Positions 12,198 to 63,900 of a stretch of DNA of 64,000 nt are shown here, piece by piece. This stretch comes from Lunularia cruciata (Eukaryota; Streptophyta; Marchantiopsida; Lunulariales; Lunulariaceae), in the NCBI GenBank assembly GCA_948567375.1, contig OX419756.1, positions 27,852,333-27,916,332 of the forward strand, in the 5' to 3' direction. The notes beneath the pieces are model-generated. The model searched no databases and was not told where the DNA came from. It worked only from the letters and a program-made list of their open reading frames with translations. A program made the position numbers and the translations under genes. Every line of letters begins with the position of its first letter. Position 1 is the first letter of the stretch.

Positions 12198-14950
12198 TTA
12201 AGAGCGTAAAACATAGCGCCTTGTGCTTGCTCCAAAAGTTAGCACGTCCCCAACATACAGTTGCTGCTTCTGGTCCCGTTGAAGTCTCACATTGTTGATG
12301 AATGTGCCATGGATCGAACCCAAGTCCATCACAGTTGCTCCCAGGCTCCGTACATACTCCAACTTGGCATGCTATTCAGCCCACGGAAATTTTACTTAGT
12401 TGTACGAAGAATTTCTAGGCAGATTGTCATGAGTGATTTAGGAGCTATGTAATAGTCTCGGTATCCAAAGTAAAGAGTTTCAAATGACAAAGTTCTCAGA
12501 AGCAATTTGTTAAAATGTAAAAACAAACAAGATATTACGGAATTATACGTCACATGGATTCATAACAGCACCTTTTAGTATCATTCAAAAACTAATGCAG
12601 GGAGTAAAACACATCAAAATCGTCGACTTCGAATATATTCCAGATAAAGGAAGATTCACCTGGCGAGAGATGGATGCATGATCAAGGACAACGTCACAAT
12701 TTGCACCACGTCCACAAACTAGGACCTTGTGTTCAACTAATTCCAGCGTCCCAAGTACTGTTCCTTCCTGGTCAGAGATTTGTCCAGGATCGTCAGGTTG
12801 GTCGGCCCCAGAGGATCAAGACATAGCAGATATTACTTCTAGAAGCATGACCTTACTTTAGACCGCCTAGCCAACATAGTGCGGAGTTGCTGCAAGTTCA
12901 AAGTAGGTTTGAATCTGACTTAATCTGTTGTACCTTGCACTGCAACCAAAATATTGCCTCTTCACAAGGGGACAGGATTAAGTCCTAAATTGTTGTTGCG
13001 CAACCTTTCAATTTCTCAAGGTATGAACAAAGTTTAAGAATCACCCACTTAGCATACATCAAAGTGCAGAAGTACTATAAATTACGGCGTTTATTTTCAT
13101 TTCTCACATATATCCAATATTCCCGGCATAAACTGGAAGCTAACTTGAAAGCTAATGATTGCAGTATCTTACTTTTAGGATGTCGAAAACAAGCATTGGC
13201 AAATTTTCCGCAAGGTCGAAGTCAGATCTTTGACGCTTTGACCCATCCGAATGTTCCTTAACCTCGACCTCAACTTCAGTCTCAAATGGCTGCAACCTCT
13301 GATGTAAATATCCATGAATTTGATCCGTATGTGTATCTTTCTCACTGGCATACAAAAGAGCCTTCTCATAGTTGACCAAAGCAGCAGTGAAACCGGGGTT
13401 TGGATCCACCTGCCTTCGTTGTTCTCTGAGAAACCTAGACAGGTAACCGGATTTTGAAGTTAAGCGAACTGCGACCTTCATCACAGAAAGGTCTCTCTTA
13501 TCAAGTATAGACCGATACTACTAAGAAAGACGACCGCAATTCACATATGAAATAGAACCTAGCCAAACAGAGAAAACTAAGTACTGGCACTAACTTGAGC
13601 GTCGTCTCCGCTTTCCATTGGTTCACCCGCATGAGGTAGGAAGCACAGAGTGTGGCCGACCGACTTGCACCGGCACCACAGTGCACCAAAACTCTCTTTT
13701 TATCTCTTCTCGCGTCTTCAACAAACTCAAACATTCTTTCAAAGAACTGGGTAATGTCCGCTTTGCTTTCATCTGCAATACAAGTTGAAGAAGTTATAAT
13801 TGCCCATGTGCATCCCTCAACTACAGAACTAGTTGTTAGTGAACCCCTCATTTAGATGCAATGAACGATGTCCTTTTACATAGACTAGAGATCCGACTAC
13901 TGAACTTCTGTTTACAGGTGCTATAAAGCTCTTACAGACCTCACTCACAAAAGAAGACTTGTACCGGCCAGTTCACAGAAGAGCGTCAGAAATCGTTTAG
14001 ACAGGTCGAGAGGTTCCGTGTGGATGGTCAAAACATGAGTTATCTGAAGGTCGTCCAAATGCATCTCATTTCTGGCGTGCTCCAAGTCACCCAAGTACAA
14101 CAATCGTGGAATTATCTGTGAGAGTAGTGATTCAGTCAGGTGCGCTAGAATGAGGAATAAGCGACAAAATCTGCAAATTGCAGCACAAGCAAATTGGAAC
14201 GGCTAGAAGTCCCTAGAATTCAAGAATCTACATATAGTCTGGATTGGTAATTTCATTAGCTCTAAAATAAAGAAGCCGACCTCGGCAGGGTACCCAGAAA
14301 CAACTGCTCCTTTGTGGGATCTCGTTACGAGAAAGGGGTATCGCTTGGCAAATCCTGCAAAGGAATCCTTTTCATCATCTGATGCACCGAGAGGCAACGG
14401 TTATCACCACCAGAGCTTCTCGGAAAAAGCAAAGGTACTTTCTGCATAATTGAAGTGAAGTGCAGAAAATCGCACGTCTTTGGTGCCAACAAATCATGCA
14501 AATAAAGGATATGCTGAACAAGCTAATAACAATGAGGAGTCTTAAGGTACAACAGAAACTGAACTTACTTTCAGACTCAAGAATTCTCAAGGATTTCGTG
14601 CGTCCCTCGTTGGTCATAAATTCAAGCACTGCATCGACATCCTTTCCTTCAGACTGTCGACTGCGCTTCCTCATGCGACCTCCTTCGGACTTCTTTCTGA
14701 GATCCTTCCGCATCTGTGATTCGCTACTATACACGGATGAGACTACAAGCACATTTCGACCCCACCAACAGTCTTGTGACCATGTTGGGGGCCCTGGTCC
14801 TGCTACCCATTCTAGAGACTTGCCATTACTCGCAGCTTTCACATTTATGGAACCACGTATGTGCCGCTCCAAATAAGCCCGCAATGGTCGAGAGTCAAAG
14901 ACCAGCAATTTCGGATCATCCAAAATCGCATTGTATGCCTTCCAAGCCAT
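12198..14950 (-). CDS. Rhodanese-like / dual-specificity phosphatase / FHA three-domain protein
   Basis: Seven exons read on the minus strand: 14950-14569, 14354-14281, 14115-13965, 13772-13595, 13434-13173, 12767-12660 and 12371-12198. All junctions are GT-AG and keep phase, giving 442 residues. Residues 1-80 look like the rhodanese/CH2 domain of MAP-kinase phosphatases (DSRP at 19-22, HIRGSINV at 30-37), with no cysteine in the usual active loop, so this domain is probably non-catalytic. A basic patch follows (81-99). The DSP domain starts at YPAEIIPRLLYLG (149-161), has a general-acid Asp203 and the signature HCGAGASRS (233-241, Cys234 and Arg240). Residues about 343-442 form a complete FHA fold: GR (368-369), SRQH (383-386), DLGSIHGTFINN (401-412). 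It should dephosphorylate Ser/Thr/Tyr on proteins and bind phosphothreonine partners through FHA. The ATG has an in-frame TGA 27 nt upstream and a good start context. Substrate unknown. Confidence 0.85.
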
Positions 14951-17900
14951 TTCAATTTTTTTGCACCTTGAAAGCTCTCATTCTACGCAATTCACATATT
15001 CCAAGTTTCCTTCCCTCAAGGTCAGTGGCCTACTGTTCCTGCCCATAAGAGCTCCTCAAACTCCTCGATTTGGAAAACCCTGATAGTTCTGCGTTTAAAC
15101 CTGCTGGAAACGAGACATTTCCTTGTTTTCATCAAGCCTCGCAATTCGATTCGGATAATCCACCAACTTTTCGGTCTCGAATAAGCTCGTCGTTATAAAC
15201 TAGCCAACACGAGCGGTCCAATTGCGAAAGGGTTGTAACATCACCACCATCGTCTCTGTACCACCCTTCAGGGAATAAGTGAGCATTTCCTGAAGAGAAG
15301 CCCTAACCCTAATTAGCTCCTACCCTAGCATCGTCCACAACATACACTGAAGCTGTAATTCTTGCCAGATGTTCTTTGTTTGAGAAAAAAAATGCAAGGA
15401 GGGTTCTTGAGGATATTGCTAGAATCTTGTGTGACACAATGTCAGTGAAATGAGATGTTTTCTGCAAGTTTCCCTGACTTTAATCGTTTCCAAATTGGAT
15501 TCAAGCGAAGACTTGAGCATGCGTACCTCGTGTGCAGTTTCACAGCATCGCTATCTACTGGATAAGATTTTGGATCTCAGTAGGCGTTCGATGCAACGAG
15601 CTAGATGAGCAAGAAAAGTTTTGGAGACAAGGTTTGGGAGAAAGCTCAATGTACTTATTAAGCAGTGGTGTTACTAAATTTTTACGTTCATTCAAGTAAA
15701 AACTATAACCAAGGTTTGAACCACGGCAGAAGCATGCCTAATCCATTCTATTTCTGCCAGGGCAAATCTCAATGTGAATCGTTGGGGAAGGGAAGTCATT
15801 CCAATTCTATACCGATTATTGGAAGTTCAGAAAGTCACATCGGGAATAAATCATGCTCCCAGATGATAACATGCCTCCTCCAGTTATGCGAAGTAGTGGA
15901 AATAGGGCAGTCCTGGGACCGGCCACGCCAAGCTAAGAAAAATTGATCCGAGATGAAAAACATCTTTTTCAAAACGGCAGATTCGACTGATGATTGTCAA
16001 TTTGGTAAAGTAAGGCACAGGATATGTAGACCATGGGACCAAAGAACAAATTTGGAAGAACAAAGAATTCGAATACAGCTTGCTGCCAAGCAATACCCAT
16101 CATACTTCCCGAATTAATTTGCCTTTTGGACTAAAAATAACAGCTCCACATCAGACTGCAGTACAATGAGAAGTCGCAATGCAGTGACTCAGCTCATCGG
16201 TAGCATGAATTATACGTACAACATGCTTCGAACATGGAAGGGCTACATTTTCACTGGTGTTGATTCAGTTCAAATTTCTTTCTTGCCATAGTTCCATACC
16301 TCAGATGAAGCTCTGTGATACATTACAACTTTGCCCGCACAAATCTTCCAGAGGTTCAACTGCGCCTTCTCCTTACAAACAGTCACATGTCACTGTGGAC
16401 GATTATTACTCGTGGCTATGCGCTGGAAAAGGAGTAGAGAATCATTATTTATTGTTCACTTCGTCGAGGAAATGCTGTGGTTAATACGGACAAATTGATT
16501 AATGTGTCTTAGTAAAAATTTCAAGCACGTTGATGTTTTGACGAGCGTGAAGGTCTTCACAAGACCGACTTGATCGGCTTTAATGCGGGTGTAGACATGC
16601 AATCGAGCTCAGCTAGTAACTTTTCCTATAGTTAAGATGATCTCCAAATGCCTTTCCATACTTTAAAAGTGAGAACACCTAAGATATAACGACAACTATT
16701 ATACTCCGCCCATGAATATCAGTCCTCAGAATCCCTCCTGTTTTCTTGTTCTCACGTCTACTGCACACATGTTTTGTCAATTGCCATATACGCCATATAC
16801 ACATATCTTAGTTCACGAGAGAAACATTCGTACTCAGTTCAAAACATAATCTCAAGACAATCTTATTAAAGAGGCACTTCTTCACTCTATGAATGATGAT
16901 ATTCTTCCAGATATTCCTCCAGATTCAACCCTGTTGAATCAAGGCAGAATAAATTTTGTACACGTAAATAGTTTCTGCAGATTTTGAGTTTACAGGTGTC
17001 TACATCAAGACCATAACTTGTTAACTAGCCACTACCTAACTCTCCCAAGTCCAGCGTCTCCAACGCGTTGTATTGGAGGAGAAAAACACATACATTCAAG
17101 CAAACAAACAGACCCAGCAAACCTTGTATCCATCGTCAGAATTCGAGAGATGGCCCATGATAGGCTTCAATGGTATGTTACTCGGACTGCAGTTTCTTTA
17201 CTGATTGCAGTACATTCACTACAACTCTGGGTTTCTGTTGAATTGACTAACAAGTTACACCTTTCTTAAACATTTGAAGATCTAACTTATCCTGTTAAAC
17301 TTGTTTACTTCTGGTCAGATACGTGTCCAGGTGTCCACCAGAAACGTGACACTTTAGTGCTATAGGATTTCTTATACACACATATCGAGCTTTTGAAACT
17401 TCATTGAGAGTACTCTAGACAGGCACAGAAAGCTCTAAATCAGATTTCCTATACGGTCCAGGGGCGAAACTCAGTTGCATCAGATCTTCAACCTACTGAA
17501 ATGTGGGAAAGATGTCCACGCGTAGAGTGATACAAGAGAACAGGTTACCGCTGGTGTGCATGGAACATATACGGTAGTGGAGGCATGCGTGTCCACTTCC
17601 CGTTTTGGAGTGGTGAATATCCTGAGCCGTAAACCCTTCTTAATTGCAAGTAATTTTGAGTGCAGAATCAACGAGGTGAAAACCGCTTCAGAAATCCGAT
17701 TCTCTAGGATGGGTTGCCTGCACGCTCTCCTCTATGAGGTACAGTGAACCGTAAACCCTTCTTAATTGCAAGTAATTTTGAGTCTGCAGAATCAACGAGG
17801 TGAACCGCGTCAGAAATCCGATTCTCTAGGATGGGTTGCCTGCACGCTCTCCTCTATGAGGTAGAGTGGAAGGGAGACAGACTTTCAGAAGGGAGAGTGC

Positions 17901-19055: not shown

Positions 19056-19967
19056 CTAAAAATCCTTCAATAAAGTCCTCACTTGTTCAAGGGTCACGAA
19101 CAGCACCACCGCGAAAGGACCCTGTCGTGTGACTGTAGGAATGAAGCCCTTGTATAGGGCCATAGGACCTTCTTTCTTCATTGTCTTCAGGGCGCAATCC
19201 ACGGCACCACTGTACGGGGGTTTCTGTCCTGGCTTGACCTCCATGTTCATAATTCGAGTTTTTATCACGTCTATTGGGTTGGAGGCCACAGAAGTCACGA
19301 AGCCGGCAGCCATGCTAGACGTAATGTGTGTAGTCAGACCGTCATCCAGGTAGCGGTTTGATATCAGGTAGTCTTTGATCTGGTCGTATGTAGCGAGTTG
19401 TGATGCGGTAACGATCATCGCCCGCTGCACAGTTGGACCCGAACCTGTCCACAAAGAAGCCAATCCTTCCTGTCTCACCATTCTTATCAAGGCGTCTCCG
19501 ACACCCGTATAATTTCTTCGTTGAAAGGCGGGAAGACGACCATCAGCTTGCATTCTAACCATGGCCACATCCGCCGGGCAACCAACTGCCGCTCCGACAC
19601 CCCCGGCAACTAGTCCTGCAACTATCTTCTTGTGCAATGGGAGTGTCTTCTCGTTTTTGTCTTGCATTTGTACCTTGAGGACATCGTAGAGCCCCAGCCG
19701 AGTGGAGGAATAGAGAACTTGACGGAGAATCGAGGCAGATACTCCTGAGTACAATGCCTTGATGCCTTCAGTTCTCACAACCTGTCTTCCCATCGATATT
19801 GTACCCGTACTGAAAGTAGCTGAGGTAGAGTTCGAAACTCCTGCCAGAGCAGGCACAACAGTCTCTCCTTGCAGCTGCATTCGGACCTTGATCAGGTCCA
19901 ACGGATGAGTAACGGATCCTGCAACGATGGAGGCCAGACCTCCTTCCACAAACCCCTTCCAGCCCAT
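19056..19967 (-). CDS. DIC: Mitochondrial dicarboxylate-type carrier (DIC / PUMP5 subfamily)
   Basis: An uninterrupted 303-residue member of the mitochondrial carrier family, which exchanges metabolites across the inner membrane. It has three repeats of about 100 residues with carrier signatures at PLDLIK (22-27), PADVAM (131-136) and PIDVIK (231-236). The second signature lacks the usual basic residue, as in plant DIC proteins. The start MGWKGFVEGG, the block VAMVRMQADGRLP and the end LYKGFIPTVTRQGPFAVVLF follow Arabidopsis DIC1-3 (also called PUMP4-6) closely. Family knowledge points to malate, oxaloacetate and related dicarboxylates exchanged with phosphate or sulphate; the older uncoupling-protein name is less likely to describe the function. 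The lack of introns and full length match this plant subfamily. Start context is good (A at -3, G at +4). A possible 68-codon upstream ORF precedes it. Confidence 0.93.
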   Translation of the reverse strand: MGWKGFVEGGLASIVAGSVTHPLDLIKVRMQLQGETVVPALAGVSNSTSATFSTGTISMGRQVVRTEGIKALYSGVSASILRQVLYSSTRLGLYDVLKVQMQDKNEKTLPLHKKIVAGLVAGGVGAAVGCPADVAMVRMQADGRLPAFQRRNYTGVGDALIRMVRQEGLASLWTGSGPTVQRAMIVTASQLATYDQIKDYLISNRYLDDGLTTHITSSMAAGFVTSVASNPIDVIKTRIMNMEVKPGQKPPYSGAVDCALKTMKKEGPMALYKGFIPTVTRQGPFAVVLFVTLEQVRTLLKDF

Positions 19968-21189: not shown

Positions 21190-22031
21190 AGAAAAGGCGA
21201 ACCGCATAGAAAATGCGAGGGTGAGACAAAAGAGCTAATGGGGTTAAGCTCCAATAGTATCGATACGAGAATTCTGCAATACTGTATCTGAGTTATGCAA
21301 GTGGTAAGGTTTACAAACCACAAGAGCATCCGAAAGAATTATCACTTAGTGTGAATGCTCTCCTATGAATTGTGCATATGAATTGTGCAAACCAATGCTC
21401 GTGGTAGAGCAATGAACACACTTCCTTTGAAATATGATATGAAGAATGAAAGTGAAAGTGATACCCATTGATGCTTAACGTGATAAGTTCTAGTGCACTC
21501 CTTGACAAATGGGTCAAATGTTGTGTCCATAACTCCAAGGCTAGAGGGACAAAAAAGTGACCTCGTTGCATAACCCTATATTTGGAGATCTTGTGTGATG
21601 CTACTCCGCCCACTGCACACCCAAGGGGATGATGAGTAATCACTCCCTCCAAAACTACATCACATGTAGGGTCCGGAACCACAACATCCACTACTATCAA
21701 CTGATCATCTCATAACAAGTATAAGTTTACCTGGACATGTGTCGTCTGCAAAGCAGATGAAAAACCTTTATCTCCAAGCAAAGTATCCACTCTCTTGTGC
21801 AATATCAAACACTATATCTTTGATGACATCATGGGTAGCTATCCTTTGTTTTCCAAAATGACACTGTATTATATGGATCATTGTTGCATCTAGTGAAACA
21901 TCATCACCAATATCATTTGTAGCTATCCTTTGTCTTCCAAAATGACACTGGGTTATATGGACCATTGTTGTATCTAGTGAAACATCATCAGTGTAGAGAA
22001 AGTAGCTACCAAAAATGAAGACTAATTGCAC
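21190..22031 (-). mobile_element. LINE 3' portion with nuclease-like C-terminal coding sequence
   Basis: A decayed copy of the LINE better preserved at 55.8-56.7 kb. On the minus strand it contains the motifs H(I)xQCHFG.QRIAT(H/N)D, then D(I)AQESGYFAWR, a VVVPDP block and an F.PLALELW block. The shared tail with TGGGGTTAAGCTCC and GCG.TCGCC-type blocks follows, ending near 21190. The reading frame is split in at least two places. An in-frame 84-bp duplication repeats the HxxxC segment. The 5' part, including any reverse transcriptase, is absent. Confidence 0.65.
21835..22002 (-). repeat. In-frame 84-bp tandem duplication inside the LINE copy
   Basis: GTAGCT-started units at 21835 and 21919 (plus-strand positions) repeat with period 84, exactly 28 codons. 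The encoded segment DDVSLD.TM.HI.QCHFG.QR therefore appears twice without breaking the frame. The other LINE copy, at 56.5 kb, has only one such unit, so the duplication belongs to this copy or its direct source. Confidence 0.85.
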
Positions 22032-23776: not shown

Positions 23777-25392
23777 TTGAGAGGATGGACACTTGGTAAA
23801 GTGAGTTTGTCTTGGAGTGGGATTTATGAATTTTTTGCCGGATCCAAAATGCCCGATTTCAACTATTCAATTTCTCAACTCAAATTCACCATCCCGAGTG
23901 CAAATGCTACTACTATCAATGAACTAAATGGCGGTTTTGTAGTTCATTTCTACAGATTAGTGCGGCAAAGGATAGTGCGAGTTATGGAAAATGAACTGCA
24001 CCACCACATGGCAACCAAGAAATTGATTGGGGGTCAAGGAATTTTACTCCAAAAAGACAACAAAAATCAAGCAACGGGAGTTCAAGTAACTTGTTACAAT
24101 GCAAGAGGCTTACTTTTGGATGCGGATCCAAGACCTATAGATTTACCTTTGGATTCGCAACCTGAACAACCATTAGGGAAATTTGGAGAACTGTTGAGAA
24201 TTGCTTCTTCGTGCCGGGCAAAAAAAGAGAGGATGAAAGGTTTTACATGGCGATGCACCATTATGGCCAAATACTAGATTATTTGGAGGACCCCAAGCAT
24301 TTTGCGTAGATTCAAGGTGGGAATTGCAAAATGCATATTAAAAAATTGACTACTTTTAGTTTCATGGCAATATTTTTGATCCGTGAGGAGTAAGGATTTC
24401 CTACTTCTATGATAGGAGACCGGCTTCACAAAAAATGGCTGAAATACATTAAACATTACAAAGAAAATTGAAAGCTAAAGAACAAGTCTACCGGAGTAGG
24501 TCTCACTAAGAAGGAATATTGCAAAGGGTGTAGAACTATAGAAGATAAATTGAATAGAATGTGCATGCATTTTGCTAGAATGGAAGCCATGTTCAAAAAT
24601 AGAGCAAAAATTAGTCCACATGCTATGGTAATTTTGGGAGATTTAAATCTCAATTTGAGCGAGGTTGGCATGGAGGAGGTCCATGAATGTGTAGAGGAGG
24701 GCTCTCAATTCACATCTCCCTTAGAGGTAGTGCTCTTCAGCTCATGCCTCCAATTTGTCCCAAACACCAATGTGATGGAAAGTATACCTAATGTGTGCAT
24801 GGACAATGGAATCCGATCACTAGAGGACAATTCACCATTTGTTGCACCAGTAGAGGACTCACCTTTTGTTACGCAACCTCCTTTAACTTCTATAGTGGAT
24901 GGATTAGAGTGCACTTTCCTTGTCCAAGAGGGAAAACATGACCCAAAAACAAGAAAAGGTGGAATATCAGCAAGTAAGGTATCATGGATGTCACCTAATA
25001 TGTCATTGTCTAAGGATTTAGCAAATATTACCATGTTGAAGGCAGATACTATAAAATCCAAGTAGAGGTTACGACTAGCTGAACTAGAAGCCACCAACAT
25101 GAGGAAAAGAGAGAAAACATTGATGAAAATGGAAGTCAAGCATGTTAGATTAGAAATAGAGAAGATGAAAGTTGAAATTGAGAAGAAACTAAGTGTAGAT
25201 AAAATGAAAGATAGGGCAAATAAACACATATTCAAGGAGAAGAGTTTAAAGTTAAAGTGCAATCATGAAATCAAAACAAGCCTCTTACGTGCAAGAAATT
25301 CTCCTAAGGAAATAAGTCAATATTTCAAAGTGCTAACTCAAGTTCAAGCGGATCCTACTCCAAATTCATCATACTCTAGTGATAGCGAATAA
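23777..25392 (+). mobile_element. Harbinger-associated DNA-binding-type ORF, decayed copy 1
   Basis: Two long open stretches on the plus strand (23777-24277, and 24550-25392 with one stop near 25063). The second contains DKLNRMCMHFARMEAMF.NRA.ISP, an acidic and Pro/Ser-rich middle, SLSKDLANITMLK, and then a Lys/Glu-rich coiled coil of about 90 residues ending TPNSSYSSDSE. The same series occurs at 48.1-49.1 kb (plus) and 44.7-45.4 kb (minus). PIF/Harbinger transposons encode a separate Myb/SANT-like partner protein, and this family is my best candidate for it, because the window also holds three Harbinger transposase relics. That link is inference, as none of the three lies next to a transposase here. 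Confidence 0.4.
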
Positions 25393-32173: not shown

Positions 32174-34704
32174 TCAACTCCCGCCATCCAGTGTGGATGA
32201 TGGAATCGAATTACCCTGTAGAAGCCCATTACGAATTTGGTCGGCGATGTCACTGACATGGCCAGGTCCATGAGGAATGAAGACAGTAGTGGTCTTAGAG
32301 TTGTTGCCAAGGTCCTTCATTGTATCAAAGTACTGCGTAATCAGAACCATATCCATTACATCCTTTGCAGAAGTCCCGGGCACGTTGTGAGAGAAAGCCA
32401 AGACACTGTCACGTAGTCCATTTGTGATTGCTTGTCGCTGCCGCGCGATACCAACACCCGACAAATACTTCGCTTCTGCTTCAGCTTCGGCACGCTTTAC
32501 TTGCAGGATCTTTTCTGCCTCTGCCTTCTCCACTGCTGCCATTCTCATTCTTTGTGCTGCAATTACAGCGCAACTTTGGGTGATTAGTGCCAAGCACCTA
32601 TGAAGATGCAGGATGGTTCAACAGGATACAACCGGAGCAAAATAAATATCCCTTTACCATGTGGAACATGAATGAACTATCGCTTAGCATAAAGACTACT
32701 CACAAACCTGCATTGATTTCGTTCATAGCACGGCGAACGGTTGCATCAGGTTCAATGTCCACAATCAGTGTCTGCTCAATACTATAACCATAATTACTCA
32801 TAACCTGCATCAACATGGACAAAACGTTACGTTCAACAATTTAAACGGATTGCGTACATCCTCACAGACTATGAGTACAGAGGCATCCAGTGTGGTAAAA
32901 GGAACATAAATACTTCCCCCTTTCCTGCCTAGCTATTTGCTGCAGATAGGTCTAAAATGCCGACAACAGGCACAGCTCCAACAAAGTTCTATACCCTCAA
33001 ATACACTCTACGTACAAGATACCAAGAGAAAGATGCCTATTAGACTGCTGCGATTAGACTACTATTACATTCTACTGAAAACATCCACAGGAATACTTCT
33101 TATTTCGCGGGAGTCTGAAAACTACAATACCCAGGTCTCGAGTGGAAACATGTCATTTGTATGGTTTTCAGGAGTCTTTGCAGGATTTCCTAACAGCATA
33201 TCATAGAGTTCCATAGCCAATCTCCTCGTGACGAAAGGCTCATTGAGAAAGAGAGGACAAGGTTCAAGTATCACACCTTTTCAAGCTCGTCTGAGACACT
33301 TTTTGCGACTTCGTCTTTCTGCTCGAACACGTCATCAAGATTCATCTTGGGAACACAAGCTCTCACCACTGAAATTTACAATATACAAGTATAAGGTGCT
33401 TTTCAGAACATATCTTTCCACAGTATTTCGAATGTACATCTTCTTAACATTATCACTCCAACATGAGCAAGACAACTAATATCATAGACGATCAGTCAGA
33501 GAAGCTCCAAAAGTGTTACACAATGTCTGGCTTCGGAAACATCTTTAAAGAAATATGGTGTTGGAAACAAAAGAACATACCATCAAAGACGTATGATTGA
33601 ATTTGTTCTCGAGGATTTTGCAGCTCGTAGAAAGCATCATCCGCATTTTGCTTCACGACACGATATTGGATGGAGCAGACAACTAGCACAAATACATTAT
33701 CCTGCAGACAGATACCCAGATATGGGTTAGTCAATCAAGAAATCTTTGATCTTGTATGTTCTCTGATCTACTCTCGATAGATGAGCTTGATGAGTCCTAG
33801 TGTCCCCTGGAAATTCATGTCCACTACTCACAATCACAATCCACAACCCTCGACAGAGAAGCACACGGAGCCCAGGAAGATGATTGAGTAGGAAGAACAT
33901 TGACTCATTCCTTTTCTAAAAACTGGGAGGCTGTAGGATAACTTGTTATCGTGTTGATTGGCAAAAAATGAATGTGAAGGAATGCTCTCTGACTGGGTAA
34001 ATTACATCCCATCAAACAGAAAATATATATGCTCCAAATTCTTTTTACTCCATGTAAACTACAAGCAACTTAATAGGCCCCTCAGCCACGATCGATTACC
34101 TCTACCATACAGGAAAAAAATGTTCCAGAGAGAAAGGGCACGCTTGACAAAGCTAAACAAACTCAACTTTCTCCCACATATATTGTCAACGACAGATTTG
34201 GACTGTAGCTCAATTTGGAGTGTCCACCCTCTGAACTAATTGACAGGAGCACGGACAGATGAATAGAAATCGACCATACAAGTCCGACGTGCATACTTCT
34301 AACATCGAGTAGGTCAGCACCTGTTGCAGGATCACAGGTCTAAAGAGAAATTGCCTGCTCTTCTCACGAAACCTGTTGCTCAAACATCACTCAAATCGTA
34401 CCTTAAGGAGCTCCATTGAGGATGGGCTTATGTCACAAAGTAAAGGACATAGCTAAAGTTTCACACAATAGATACAAGGTGTTCAACTCTATTGTAGGGA
34501 AGAAGAAAGAGAGAATCGGACCTTAGTCTTTGTATCGCACCGGACATCGAGCGACTGGACGCGAACTGACAGGCGCCCGGCCATCCAATATCCGAAGAAG
34601 GGGTTCAAACAAATCAACCCCGGTGACGCCACACGTGAGAATCGGCCCCATTGTTCAACAATGCCTATCTCCGCATTATCAACACACAGTAATCCAGTTC
34701 CCAT
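32174..34704 (-). CDS. HIR: Hypersensitive-induced reaction (HIR) protein, band-7/SPFH family
   Basis: Five exons on the minus strand: 34704-34522, 33701-33581, 33368-33277, 32804-32708 and 32556-32174. All have GT-AG borders in matching phase and give 291 residues (Arabidopsis HIR1 is 286). The start MGTGLLC carries Gly2 for likely N-myristoylation and a nearby Cys for acylation, as in HIR proteins, which sit on the inner face of the plasma membrane in microdomains and take part in immune-receptor complexes and cell death. The SPFH domain is recognisable throughout: [47 protein letters not shown]. The C-terminal part ([20 protein letters not shown]) is coiled coil, followed by [14 protein letters not shown] and [14 protein letters not shown]. 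The first 45 residues are less conserved than the rest. The ATG at 34704 is preferred because no other in-frame ATG was seen in the open stretch upstream. Confidence 0.92.
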
Positions 34705-47690: not shown

Positions 47691-48140
47691 ATTTTTGGAG
47701 GCCTAAACGGATGAATTAGGCCTCAAAAATGTGCAGACTCCCCCCCCCCAAATAGAGGAGAGGCTGGCCTTCCCTCCTCCCTGGTTTGCCTCGTCGAGAG
47801 CTTTCCAACGGTACCTTACTCATGTGATTCTGAGATTCCTACAGGAAGATTCCCTAAAAGATTCCCTCTAGTCAAAGCTCGTTTGACCAACCAGATAGGA
47901 CCTAGACCAGACAGGTCACCCATCCAAGTAAGTAATCCAAGGGTGGAGCTTGCTGACATGTCACCTATCTGTGTCCCTAATCCTATGGTGGAGCTTCCTT
48001 GGAGGAGATCCTCTTTGTCTATATAATAAAGAGAAGGTGCTCCCTTGGGGCATCGAATGTTTGAGTGTGCAATCTGTGTTTTCTCTCTTCTCTTGTCCTC
48101 GGAGTATTACATATATGAAGTCTTATAAAGATGCTAAAGA
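47691..48140. other. GC-richer segment with a C-run and TATA-like word
   Basis: A GC-richer 400 bp compared with its flanks, with a run of ten C at about 47741-47750 and CTATATAATA at about 48018. It precedes the plus-strand Harbinger-associated ORF and could be that element's promoter, but I have no second copy to compare. Confidence 0.3.
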
Positions 48141-49080
48141 TTGGAAATCAATTACAAAAGAGAGAGTCTTATCATGAGAGAGTTAAAGAGAGGATGGTCA
48201 ATTGTAGTAGATAAATTAAATCATATTTGTACTCCTTTTGGTAGAATGGATGTAATGTTTGGCAATCGTGCTAACATTTCTCCTCCAACTCTGGTGAGTA
48301 TTAGTTGTGTGCTTGAACAAGAGGTTATGATCCTTGATGGGATCTACTCTAACAACAAGGATGAAGAATTGGTTGAAAGTCTTATAGATTTTATTCTGCA
48401 AATTTTCTACATCTTGAGTACACAAGAACATGCATGCAATGCACTTGAAGAATAAAATGGTGCATTTGTTTTTGTGTCAAGAAGGCTTGAACCTAAGGAT
48501 AGTCCATGCTTAATGAGAGCATTAATATGAAGAGGAGTATTGTTTTGAAGGAGAAGGTAGCTTCTATATCAAGGGTAGGAGCACAAGAAGAGGAGCACCA
48601 TGGTACAAGAGCAAGAGTACAAGAGGAAATTCAAGAAGATTTAGAGGAGGAGGGTAGAGAAGTAAAAAAGGAGAATGAAGAAACCAAAGAAGCATCCAAA
48701 GAGAAGGAAGATTTGAGGAAGAGGAAGAAAAAAATTTTAAGTGACAAAGATTACACATGTAATTGTCTCTTTATCATAAGATTTAGCTAATCATAGCAAA
48801 TTGAAGAGTGAATCACTAGAAGCTAGAAACAAGTGTATGATAGTTGAGATTGAAGAATTGAAAGCAACAAAAATTGAGAACAATTGAAGAAAGAATATAT
48901 TTTTTATAGAGAAAAAAAGATCAAAGGTAGAGAAATGTAGAATCAAGGAGAGAAATGAAAAATCCAAAAGATTCTACTCCATGACACTAGAATTAGCATG
49001 AGCACAAAGACACCCAATGAAATCAGGAGTATTATTTCAACATTCTATGAAATAACTCCTTCTTATCCATAGGTTGATTA
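48141..49080 (+). mobile_element. Harbinger-associated DNA-binding-type ORF, decayed copy 3
   Basis: Plus-strand open frame 48141-48455 holds VDKLNHICTPFGRMDVMFGNRANISPPTLVSI (read in two parts here), the best preserved version of this family's core. Downstream, in other frames, are LSKDLANHSKLKSESLEARN (about 48.77-48.83 kb) and a charged coiled coil, as in copy 1. The conserved Phe-Gly-Arg-Met and Gly-Asn-Arg-Ala-Asn motifs do not match a domain I can name. It would be a partner DNA-binding protein if it belongs to PIF/Harbinger. Confidence 0.4.
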
Positions 49081-55804: not shown

Positions 55805-57350
55805 GTATACAACAGAATAAAAGGCGACCACGTAGGAAAAATGAAGGATGGGAAGACCCCATCAAGCCGTACAAGGGAGAGACAAAAAAGGTAACATGGG
55901 GCTAAGCCCCAATAGAGTCTGTATGAGAAATCTGCCCTACCGCACCTAAGATATCCGAGCTATGCAAGTCGTATAGTCTACACACAACTAGAGCATCCGA
56001 AGAAACATCACCTAATGTGATTGCTCTCATATGGATTGCACCAGCCACTGCCCTCTGTAGAGCAATGGACACACGCTGTCTAACATGCTACACAATATGC
56101 TACAAAGTATGAGAGTGAGAGTGGTACCCTCTGACGCCTAACATGATAAGCTCTCGCGCACTCCCTGACAAATGTGTCAAATGCAGTGTCTATCGCTCCA
56201 TATAACTCCAAGGCTAGAGGAACAAAGAGGTGACCTTGCTGCATGCCCCTATACTTGGAGACCTTGTGACCTGCTACTGCACTCGCCGCCCATCCAGAGG
56301 GATGGGTAATCACTCCCTCCAAAACTGTATCCTGCGTAGGGTCCATGACCACGACATCCGCTATTGTCACCTGATCATCTCGGACCAAGTATAAGTCTGC
56401 CCTGACACGAGTCGTCTGCAACGCATACGAACGCTCCCTCCAAGCCAAGTATCCACTCTCTCGTGCCATAGCAAACACTATATCTCTAATGGCATCATGG
56501 GTAGCTATCCTCTGTCCTCCAAAAGGACACCTTGTCATGTGGACCACCGCTGCATCTAGTGTAGAACCACACTCACAAGTGAGTAATGAAGATGCAGATG
56601 GGTGGACCAAACCTAGGCAAAACCTCATCGCTGTAGAGAAAGTAGCCGGTGCAAGTCGGAAAGCCCTAATGCATGGTTGAGCTAGGATCCACGAGCCTGC
56701 ACCCTTGCCGGAGCAAGAGCGTAGTCATGCTCTAGTAGCATGAGGAATGGACGAGTCAATTAAGAGAGAATGTAGCGTATGCTCACACGGTTGCTCCATC
56801 AAGGAAGACTGTAGACCTCTAGTCCAATCTGACGATAGTGAAGCAAACGGTGGAAAAAACTCTCGTGCTCGTGAGGATAGACTATCTCTCGTCTGCCGCA
56901 ATAACACCTGGAGAGAAAAGGATCCTCCCTCCACCTCTGTCACATAAGTCTCCCAACCAGGTTTCCGGTCTACTATTCTCTCTTTGCTATAAAGGAAAGG
57001 TGCTTCCCCGTGCTCCTCTAGAAAAGGGAAAAAGGCGACCACCTCTCCTTTGTCCTCTACTAATCTCGTAGGCTTTGAGAGGAAATCATCAATCGAGAGG
57101 AGAGTGTGTGCTTCTTGTCGTGAGAAGAATTGAAGGTCGTGAGCTTTTGGTCGCGAGAAGAATTGAGGATGTGATTCAATGATTCTCTCTATGAGAACGA
57201 ACTACAACAAGAACTTAGAGGAAAGCTTTTCGTCGTGAGAGGATGTGATTATGTGATTCTCGACAAGAACTAGATTGTGTCTCTCTAGCTCTCTCTACTT
57301 CGTGTCTCTGTGGACGAACCTTGTTTGCATTCCGTGGAATGTTTGCGTGA
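55805..57350 (-). mobile_element. LINE with Cys/His and nuclease-like C-terminal domain, best copy
   Basis: The minus-strand frame 56628-56080 (182 codons) contains CECGSTLDAAVVHMTRCPFGG (as CxCG...H..xC), THDAIRDIVFAMARESG, then RADLYL, IADVVVMDP, a KVSKYR lysine and FVPLALELYGAIDTAFD. This order (zinc-knuckle-like CxC...H...C, then a PD-(D/E)XK-like core) is the C-terminal half of non-LTR retrotransposons with a restriction-enzyme-like nuclease; reverse transcriptase itself is missing here. The 3' tail follows to about 55805. Upstream on the same strand is an unrelated 105-codon open frame (57042-56725, MVAFFPFLEEHGEAP) and a leader-like GC-richer stretch to about 57350, possibly the 5' end joined by an internal deletion. 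The join near 56.68 kb shifts frame. Confidence 0.6.
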
Positions 57351-60482: not shown

Positions 60483-61247
60483 TGATGGAGTCTACAAGAG
60501 GCTGAACATTGCATTCGTGCTCAATTCTGGATTTATCTACGAAGAGAGAGAGAGAGGTCAGTATATGTGAGCATGCATTGAGAGCCAGTTATTGTTTTGT
60601 AGACAGAGGATTTGTGGAATTTGTTGTTATGAACTTATTCGCAGACGCAGTAGTAGCCCTAGCATTTTGTGAAGTGATGATTTGTTGACGGGTTGTCCAT
60701 ATGAAGTTCTAGACTGAGGGATTTGAGGCGTCTGAGGGGTGAGCATTGCTTGAATTGAGTGCCTGTCTGGCTGATTTGGATTGCTGAAGTTTAATGTAGT
60801 CTTCGTTCTTCGTTGTTAATTGCTCTGTCCGGACTTTCGCTTTACAGAAAATTGGAAGGAAATTCAGAATTCCCAGGTTGCAACACGTTGGATGTCGATT
60901 TGGACATGTTGGAGCTATATCGAATATTTCGAAGTCGGGAAAAGGCAGAACTTAACACAGATGTGAACCCATGTATGCTTAATGGAGTAAAAGTGCGAAG
61001 ATGTAGACGCTACTGTGCATCGGCTTCCGGTTCAGATTCTGTAATTTCCCTGGACTTCGACGGTTCTTGCTGTTTAGGCATCCATGACTCAGGAGGTCGT
61101 ATGCTGAGCTAAACAGTAAAGAAGCCACTTTATTTGGCAGGGATTTCAGGTCGGCATGGTCTGCTGATGACAGGGCACTCTGGTTAATCAAGGCAGAAAG
61201 GATTGGCGGGTGGTCTTAGGTGCTACAATACATCTACTGGGGTAAAG
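60483..61247 (+). promoter_or_regulatory. MRS2: Likely promoter and leader of the MRS2 gene
   Basis: This stretch lies directly upstream of the first MRS2 coding exon and has gene-island composition, with a short GA microsatellite at about 60543-60556. An in-frame TAA at 61185 separates the coding exon from anything upstream in the same frame. An open frame at 60813-61112 in a different position could act as an upstream ORF if transcribed; its first ATG encodes MLELYRIFRSREKAELN. No TATA box could be assigned. Confidence 0.35.
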
Positions 61248-63900
61248 ATGAGGCCCCGCACGCCTCCGGTTAAGGCCGCGGTCTCAGGAAATGGAGTCCT
61301 TCTCGATGACGAGAGGGACAAGGAGAGAGAGAAGGCCACTTTACTTGGACTAAGGAAAAAAGGAATGGGAGTTCGGGCTTGGTTAATGATAGACGCCAGT
61401 GGAAGAGCTCAAATGGTAGAAGCCGGAAAGCATGCCATTATGCGTAGGGCTTGTCTCCCCGCTCGAGATCTGCGCATTCTGGATCCTCTGCTCACATATC
61501 CTTCGACTATTTTGGGAAGAGAGCGTGCGATTGTGGTCAATCTTGAGCACATTAAAGCAATTATCACTGCCCAGGAAGTTCTGCTACTGAATTCTAAGGA
61601 TCCTGCAGTTGTTCCAATCGTGTCAGACCTGCAGCGTCGGCTTCCTCTGCATTTCAATTCGTTCGGGCAGCAGGTATGCGGGAATAATTGAAACAAATGC
61701 ATCTTGAGAAAATCGAGACACCTTTTCCTTTACAAACGAATTTACTCGATTGTAGCTAATTAGAGAAACTCTTCAAGTTCAATGGACTTCGTCTATCTGC
61801 TTGGAGGCGGAGATGAACATCTTTTTCAATCTTATCATCACCTGGTTAATCATCACATCTCTCGTCAGTCGTGTTGTGCCAATTTGAACGGCTTCCCAGC
61901 CTGAGTATTTGTTCCCACGGAATTGCAGGTCGCCGGTGACGGAGGTGGTGGACTTAGTGACAATGAGGGAGATGGCCACCTAAAGCCTCCTGAAAATTCT
62001 CCATCGGGTGGCATGAGTAGAGTAACATCTAGCTCGATGTTGAACAATTTAGGACAAGGGTCTCAAGCACAAGGAACCACTTCTGATGGTCCACCATCAC
62101 CACCTTCTTTCCAGGCTAGTGACTTTAGAAACTCAGGTGCGAGTCCATCTCGAGCAAGTGGAGGTCCCAGCGTGTTACCTTTCGAGTTCCGCGCTCTCGA
62201 GGTTTGCTTGGAAGCAGCTTGCAGCTGTCTCGATGCGGAGGTTAGATTTCAAACCTATGAATTTCTTTGGGTACCACCTTTGATCGTGAGTGATCCGAGA
62301 ATCTTCCACCCGTTCTGCGGAATTTCGGAACTATATTTGAGTTTCTCATTCAAGTTATTAGGGTGTTCTGGTGTATATTACTCTGTTGCCGGGCATTAGG
62401 TTATTGAAACGTTACATCTGGTTCTTTGGAGCGCTCTCCAGGTTGATGGTTGCTCAAAAGTCATCCATACATCGCCGTGCAGTGTAGTCAGTCGATAAAA
62501 CATGTGTATTCCCAAATTCATGTCAATGATCCTTCTGAGTTGATGGTGTATCTTCTTCATGCAGACCGTCACTCTGGAGCGAGAAGCCTATCCTGCGTTA
62601 GATGAGCTTACATCGAAACTAAGTACCCTAAATCTTGAGCGTGTCAGACAGATAAAGAGCCGTCTCGTGGCTATCTCTGGTCGAGTGCAGAAGGTACTGG
62701 AATTGCTTGCAAAGAGCTTAACTTAGTACTGCTGAGTTTGTATTTATTGAAGATCTGCTTTATGCTAACAGCTTCTTTAGACAGAACAAAGTCCTAGTAG
62801 TCTGTGTCTTGTCCCATGTCAATCAATCTTTATCCTTTTGTTTTTCGCAATTAACCTGCGTTTGAAAATCTCAGGGTTAAGGGAATGAAGAGAAAAATAG
62901 TGATGTATATGTGGGTCTCGTTGGCGAGTGCTCTCCCTCGTGAGCGGAAATTTTGTTTTGCCCCTTTGCGACAAAAAACTAATAAGGGTTACTTGATATC
63001 TCGCTCCCAATATTCAGAATGTACGATACGAAGTAACATGTGAAGGGGTTTGGTTCATCGAAGCTTAACTGGAATTGCAATAAGTTGGGACTCTATTGCA
63101 ATAAGAATTGCAATAGATTCTCATAGTCTTTCCAGCTGTGTCAGAAATATTCTTTTGAAGATGATACGGATTACAAGCTCCAGGATCTTCCTCTGGATTT
63201 TCTTGGTTCTTGGTTGGTTTCTTGGTTTGTTGATTTTCTTATGCGTTGGACCTAACTTTCTAGGTTGTAAATAATGGACTGCAGGTCAGGGATGAGATTG
63301 AGCAGCTTCTGGATGATGATGGAGATATGGCAGAAATGTATCTGACTGACAAACTCTTGCGAATGCAAATGGAAGGAGCATTATCTCCATCTTCATCTGA
63401 GGGAGGTGCACGTTCTATGTCTTTTAACCATATGGACTCCGGCAAGATGGACTCGTCGTTAAACCTGGATAAGACATCCACTGCTCTCCAACCTGACATT
63501 CAGGACTCAGAACAGGGGTGAGCTTGTTGTTGATCTTGAAAGTCCTTGGTGTGGTGCCAATCTACTTTGGAGCAGTTTGTGTACTGTTGTGGGCAAATAT
63601 TGTTGTCAATTTTTATTTCCAGGAGATTCTTTTATTGATGTGTGTTTCTTTCTCGTGTGCTGCCTTTTGGCATTCCGCAGAGGGGCAAAAGCATATGAAC
63701 AGATATCTGGAGGAGGTATGGAGGACCTTCTTCACTCCGACGAAGTTGGTGCAAAGAGGACCATAGCTCGAAGTAGAAGCAGTAGTAGCAGTAGCTCATC
63801 CAGCAGTAGCAATGGGGGAAAGCTGGACGTTGAAGAACTGGAAATGCTTCTGGAAGCCTACTTTGTGCAGATCGACGGCACTCTGAACAAGCTGTCAACT
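61248..63900 (+). CDS. MRS2: MRS2/MGT magnesium transporter (CorA family), 5' part, runs off window
   Basis: Five coding exons: 61248-61673, 61929-62240, 62565-62693, 63285-63517 and 63681-63900, all GT-AG and in phase, giving the first 440 residues. Strong matches to the Arabidopsis MRS2-1/MRS2-10 clade: LPARDLRILDPLLTYPSTIL, REDERAIVV-like RERAIVVNLEHIKAIITA, LPFEFRALEVCLEAAC, YPALDELTSKLSTLNLER, RVQKVRDEIEQLLDDDGDMA, and LEMLLEAYFVQIDGTLNKL. These proteins form pentameric Mg2+ channels, usually in vacuolar or other inner membranes. The two membrane helices and the Gly-Met-Asn pore motif should follow in the next exon, beyond the window. The part seen is longer than in Arabidopsis, whose whole protein is about 440 residues: a Gly/Ser/Pro-rich insert (about 143-230) and a Ser-rich tract of 11 serines in exon 5 (about 63778-63810) account for this. 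The first in-frame ATG after the stop at 61185 is used. Confidence 0.92.

Follow-up and report, generated by a model that had tools for sequence, protein, structure and literature searches.

The window analysed here, a 64,000-nucleotide stretch of Lunularia cruciata DNA, contains on its minus strand a seven-exon gene (14950-12198) predicted to encode a rhodanese-like N-terminal part, a dual-specificity phosphatase (DSP) domain and an FHA domain. The gene was rebuilt independently from the raw sequence, and the seven joined exons yielded 442 codons followed by a TAA stop. All six introns are of the GT-AG type with compatible phases, and the spliced coding sequence is devoid of internal stops; the remaining two frames of the same sequence contain 20 and 28. 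GC content is 0.44-0.53 in the exons versus 0.34-0.41 in the introns. The start ATG lies in a good context (ATTGAAATGGCT) and is preceded by an in-frame stop. The rebuild reproduces the single 442-residue protein from seven phase-compatible exons that had been proposed in a preliminary description of this DNA.

Exon 1 (14569-14950, residues 1-127) carries the start codon and the N-terminal rhodanese/CH2-like segment and ends at a GTAAGT donor. Exon 2 (14281-14354, residues 128-152) keeps the frame and encodes the end of the rhodanese-like region (RFAKRYPFL) together with the linker to the DSP. The first half of the DSP (IIPRLLYLGD...) is encoded by exon 3 (13965-14115, residues 153-202), as placed by Pfam DSPc and by alignment to DUSP1, DUSP4 and DUSP5, and the catalytic core, with the general acid D203 and the P-loop HC(234)GAGASR(240), by exon 4 (13595-13772). 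Exon 5 (13173-13434) contains the end of the DSP, a linker (residues ~290-340) and the first FHA strand, PMLVFDILK (residues 341-349), and has a GTAAGA donor. The remainder of the FHA domain is divided between exon 6 (12660-12767, residues 350-385; 108 nt, phase 0-0), which runs from EGTVLG through CGR(369) to S(383)RQ and is assigned by Pfam FHA and by the solved structures 2jpe and 4h87, and exon 7 (12198-12371, residues 386-442), which runs from H(386)AKLEYV through DLGSIHGTFINN and FGASTRRYVLRS to the stop. Intron 5 (12768-13172), at 405 nt the longest of the introns, separates the DSP exons from the FHA exons. Two variant transcripts can be predicted from the sequence: retention of intron 5 would add six codons before a stop and give a 355-residue rhodanese-DSP form devoid of FHA, and skipping of exon 6 would leave the frame intact but cost the FHA domain R369 and S383.

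The donor of intron 2 (GTCGGC) is weak. At the exon 2/3 junction the predicted GYPAE aligns with GGPVE of DUSP1 and DUSP4, and in a five-residue test only 4 of the window's 5119 open donors matched as well. Alternative in-frame exon 2 donors at 14305 and 14302, which would give KGAIIPR or KGAVIIPR, were set aside; the donor at 14281 was preferred because it restores the P-x-E-I motif of MAP-kinase phosphatases (MKPs).

Several other features were identified in the window. At 19059-19967 on the minus strand lies a mitochondrial carrier gene of 303 codons without introns, of the plant DIC/uncoupling type (Pfam Mito_carr, 2.8e-67). The plus strand carries an MRS2-like magnesium transporter exon at 61188-61688 (PF22099, 1.1e-10). 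An open reading frame at 32177-32617 (minus strand), which had no Pfam match above the cut-off, presumably resembles the C-terminal part of HIR (hypersensitive-induced reaction, SPFH) proteins from plants. The open reading frames at 21314-21709 and 56083-56724 (minus strand; the latter had no Pfam match) have the stretch DVVV.DPT.D.VLEGVITH... in common and are probably copies of one retroelement. Those at 24472-25062 and 48138-48452 (plus strand) share KLN..C..F.RM..MF.NRA.ISP and are probably copies of one transposon-borne gene. Upstream of the fusion gene, at 17480-17853, short direct repeats are seen in translation (RRACRQPILENRIS..., QNYLQLRRVYGS). No tRNA and no Rfam family was found in the window. 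The mitochondrial carrier and the MRS2-like exon, taken together with the GT-AG introns, are in keeping with nuclear DNA of a plant, and intron size would tentatively suggest a bryophyte.

A Pfam search of the 442-residue product returned DSPc, FHA and Rhodanese above their respective cut-offs, the last of these modestly, in agreement with the domains first proposed. The DSPc match (PF00782) scored 105.7 bits against a cut-off of 33.5 (E = 2.1e-30, residues 158-286) and the FHA match (PF00498) 71.1 bits against a cut-off of 20.7 (E = 1.1e-19, residues 366-432). As sequence matches these two assignments are far past chance and beyond doubt. Among solved proteins, DUSP1, DUSP4 and DUSP5, all MAP-kinase phosphatases, come nearest to the DSP (E = 2e-20 to 1e-19), with 33-35% identity across the domain and 35% to human DUSP1. 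D203 aligns with the general-acid Asp in EDNHKADI of DUSP1, and the P-loop HCGAGASR (residues 233-240) is a complete HCxxGxxR motif with C234 and R240. All three residues are found where the initial reading of an intact active site had placed them. The three aligned DUSP chains show HS at the position of the expected catalytic Cys, which we take to be the customary crystallography change, and because of this the catalytic Cys was judged from the motif. The DSP is predicted to be catalytically complete and MKP-like, with catalysis by cysteine taken from knowledge of the family.

The FHA domain is closest among solved domains to those of human NIPP1 (2jpe, E = 1.7e-16, 40% identity) and human kanadaptin (4h87, E = 1.3e-15, 43% identity), and the match to the FHA domain of KAPP (1mzk) is far weaker (E = 0.028). 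By this similarity a KAPP origin of the domain was ruled out, and the domain is classed as NIPP1/kanadaptin type, not KAPP type. The conserved residues include G368, R369, S383, R384, H386, H406 and the FGxSTR motif. The preliminary description had reported a complete domain with the phosphothreonine-binding residues Arg369, Ser383, His386 and Asn411. The first three are present, but Asn411 is the N of TFIN and not the peptide-contacting FHA Asn; the position of that Asn in STNGT is occupied by His406, as it is in NIPP1 and kanadaptin (STHGT). In the present protein this contact loop is GSIHGT, with Ile405 where NIPP1 and kanadaptin have Thr. In canonical FHA domains such as Rad53 FHA1, the Thr at this position helps to hold the phosphopeptide, and binding may therefore be weak or altered. 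Phosphothreonine binding is likely from membership of the family, not certain with one contact position changed.

The N-terminal part is less clearly recognisable. In the full protein the Pfam Rhodanese match scored a modest 27.0 bits against a cut-off of 22.2 (E = 6.2e-6, residues 6-37) and covered profile positions 5-36 of 102, i.e. the first third. When the N-terminal part was scanned alone the score was 22.1 bits, just below the cut-off, and no PDB relative of this part was found up to E = 10. The RFAKRYPFL segment and the position ahead of the DSP fit a CH2/rhodanese domain of the MKP type by resemblance. The rhodanese active-site loop (Cys and six-residue loop) was not seen in the N-terminal part, and a rhodanese fold, if present, is therefore most likely inactive. 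An inactive CH2/rhodanese-like domain, as proposed, is plausible, with the domain recognised only in its N-terminal third. No RRR cluster, the kinase-interaction motif, lies straight after GSINV, its usual place in MKPs. A basic cluster is found further along, at residues 80-98, where it would fit nuclear import.

The gene structure, the domains and the intact DSP catalytic residues are established at the sequence level, and the single-gene reading of this locus is likewise strong. Both the NIPP1 alignment, from residue 341, and the kanadaptin alignment begin within exon 5, the exon that completes the DSP, and run across the exon 5/6 junction, with LETLK|GGTILGT in kanadaptin corresponding to FDILK|EGTVLGT here (the bar marks the junction). 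The nine residues before each open GT donor in the whole window, on both strands, were scored against NIPP1 and kanadaptin; the donor at 13173 scored 30, a value reached by no other among 4194 open GT donors. The argument that the junction falls inside the FHA fold and speaks against two genes is borne out by both results. Going upstream from the FHA domain, the frame of exon 6 meets a stop before it meets any Met, and the first Met downstream is M400, inside the fold; the FHA exons end precisely where the FHA domain ends. A separate FHA gene would be without the first FHA strand because that strand sits in exon 5. The alternative is that two adjoining genes were wrongly joined, one for rhodanese-DSP that stops after exon 5 and another for the FHA domain. 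It is favoured by the length of intron 5 and by the stop six codons past 13173, which makes a DSP-only product possible, but is highly improbable against the aligned strand on the DSP side, the unique donor and the FHA exons that lack an in-frame upstream start codon.

As far as can be seen, the DSP+FHA combination is undescribed in the literature searched. A rice survey listed ten phosphatase architectures, none of which is DSPc+FHA or rhodanese-DSP (PMC3091634). Phrase searches for DSP+FHA returned zero papers. The main text of kinetoplastid, oomycete, Entamoeba, apicomplexan and human surveys describes no DSP+FHA protein, aside from a label on human DUSP15, and the main text of the Zygnema genome paper, which includes an analysis of domain combinations, makes no mention of DSP+FHA. 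The DUSP15 label is 'SMAD/FHA' superfamily, given in one review table (PMC5618612). DUSP15 differs from the present protein in being a small one-domain DSP, and in our judgement the label is a superfamily-level annotation and not a tested FHA domain. No relatives were found in prokaryote genomes and viral contigs by scans with full-protein, DSP and FHA alignments that need near-exact short peptides, a weak negative and the expected one for a plant gene. The earlier statement that no described plant protein with all three domains was known is consistent with these searches and with the rice list.

The architecture may nevertheless be common, unnamed and unstudied, in non-seed plants. The odds are roughly even that this is one member of a widespread family of plant proteins carrying automatic annotations yet undescribed in the literature searched. 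That the seven-exon gene is intact and its active sites are conserved implies that selection has acted and hence that relatives exist, while the rice architectures and the empty phrase searches argue against a widespread family.

The explanation that best accounts for these data, with a probability of approximately 0.6, is that one nuclear gene joins a rhodanese-like part, a complete MKP-type DSP and an NIPP1/kanadaptin-type FHA domain, and that its product would act as a reader-eraser phosphatase. The nuclear location, the ligand, the substrate and the order of reading and erasing are what we infer. The FHA domain of NIPP1 binds the TP-rich region of SF3b1, dependent on phosphorylation of SF3b1 by cyclin/CDK (PMC1420302). 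By analogy, the FHA domain described here would dock on a phosphothreonine in a target protein that is probably nuclear; a pThr-Pro site generated by a CDK or MAP kinase is one possibility. Docking would bring the DSP to further phosphosites, in the bound protein or in its partner, with the rhodanese-like part adding substrate docking, and the DSP would then erase phosphates near the docking site. A neighbouring site is the more likely substrate than the docking site itself because the FHA domain shields its bound phosphothreonine.

The main rival is a mechanism like that of KAPP, in which the FHA domain would recognise the phosphorylated Thr of an activated receptor-like or MAP kinase and the DSP would switch that kinase off. 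The FHA domain of KAPP does bind receptor-like kinases (PMC3091634), and the present DSP is nearest to MAP-kinase phosphatases and follows a presumably inactive rhodanese-like domain, as in MKPs. Against this, the FHA domain is not of the KAPP type, no basic docking motif stands out where MKPs usually have one, and the basic cluster located beyond that place points to the nucleus. This action on a bound kinase is considered possible but unlikely.

Less probable still is an FHA domain that works mainly in cis, by binding a phosphothreonine in the linker or rhodanese part of its own protein, or in a second copy of it, and so gating phosphatase activity or dimerisation. The long charged linker between the DSP and the FHA domain would suit such an arrangement, and Chk2 uses its FHA domain in cis and for dimers. 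No specific phosphothreonine site was identified in the protein, and the cis arrangement is regarded as rather improbable.

An extension of the reader-eraser reading is offered tentatively, and its full form is doubtful: the gene may represent an undescribed, lineage-specific class of plant phosphatases that arose when an NIPP1/kanadaptin-type FHA domain was added to an MKP-type phosphatase. Such a class would act only on proteins primed by phosphothreonine, possibly nuclear targets of CDKs or MAP kinases, and would be absent from flowering plants. If expressed as one protein, this DSP with a phosphothreonine reader of its own would allow phosphorylation-primed dephosphorylation to be tested directly in plants.

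Compared with known systems, the protein shares with DUSP1, DUSP4 and DUSP5 the order of an N-terminal rhodanese/CH2-like part then DSP, the P.EI linker before LYLG, and the conserved Asp and P-loop. It differs from them in that the rhodanese-like part is only weakly recognisable, no clear kinase-interaction motif is seen and a C-terminal FHA domain is added. The rhodanese-DSP order had been described as the layout of animal MAP-kinase phosphatases, but it is not confined to animals, as Plasmodium and Toxoplasma also have RHOD-DSPs (PMC8949495). These apicomplexan proteins (e.g. PfMKP1) likewise place rhodanese before DSP outside animals, although no FHA domain is mentioned for them and the catalytic residues of PfMKP1 are poorly conserved (PMC8949495). 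The FHA domains of NIPP1 and kanadaptin, at 40-43% identity, have the SxHGTF and FGxSTR motifs in common with the present one. NIPP1 is a regulator of PP1, and to our knowledge neither NIPP1 nor kanadaptin carries a phosphatase domain. KAPP is the plant protein in which FHA is likewise joined to a phosphatase, and, as had been noted at the outset, its enzyme is a PP2C; the rice phosphatome contains FHA with PP2C only (PMC3091634). PP2C is unrelated to DSP, no PP2C domain was found by Pfam in the 442-residue protein, and the FHA subtypes differ. If the gene is expressed as one protein, plants would have joined FHA to a phosphatase at least twice, in KAPP and in the present gene, with enzyme folds and FHA subtypes that differ between the two.
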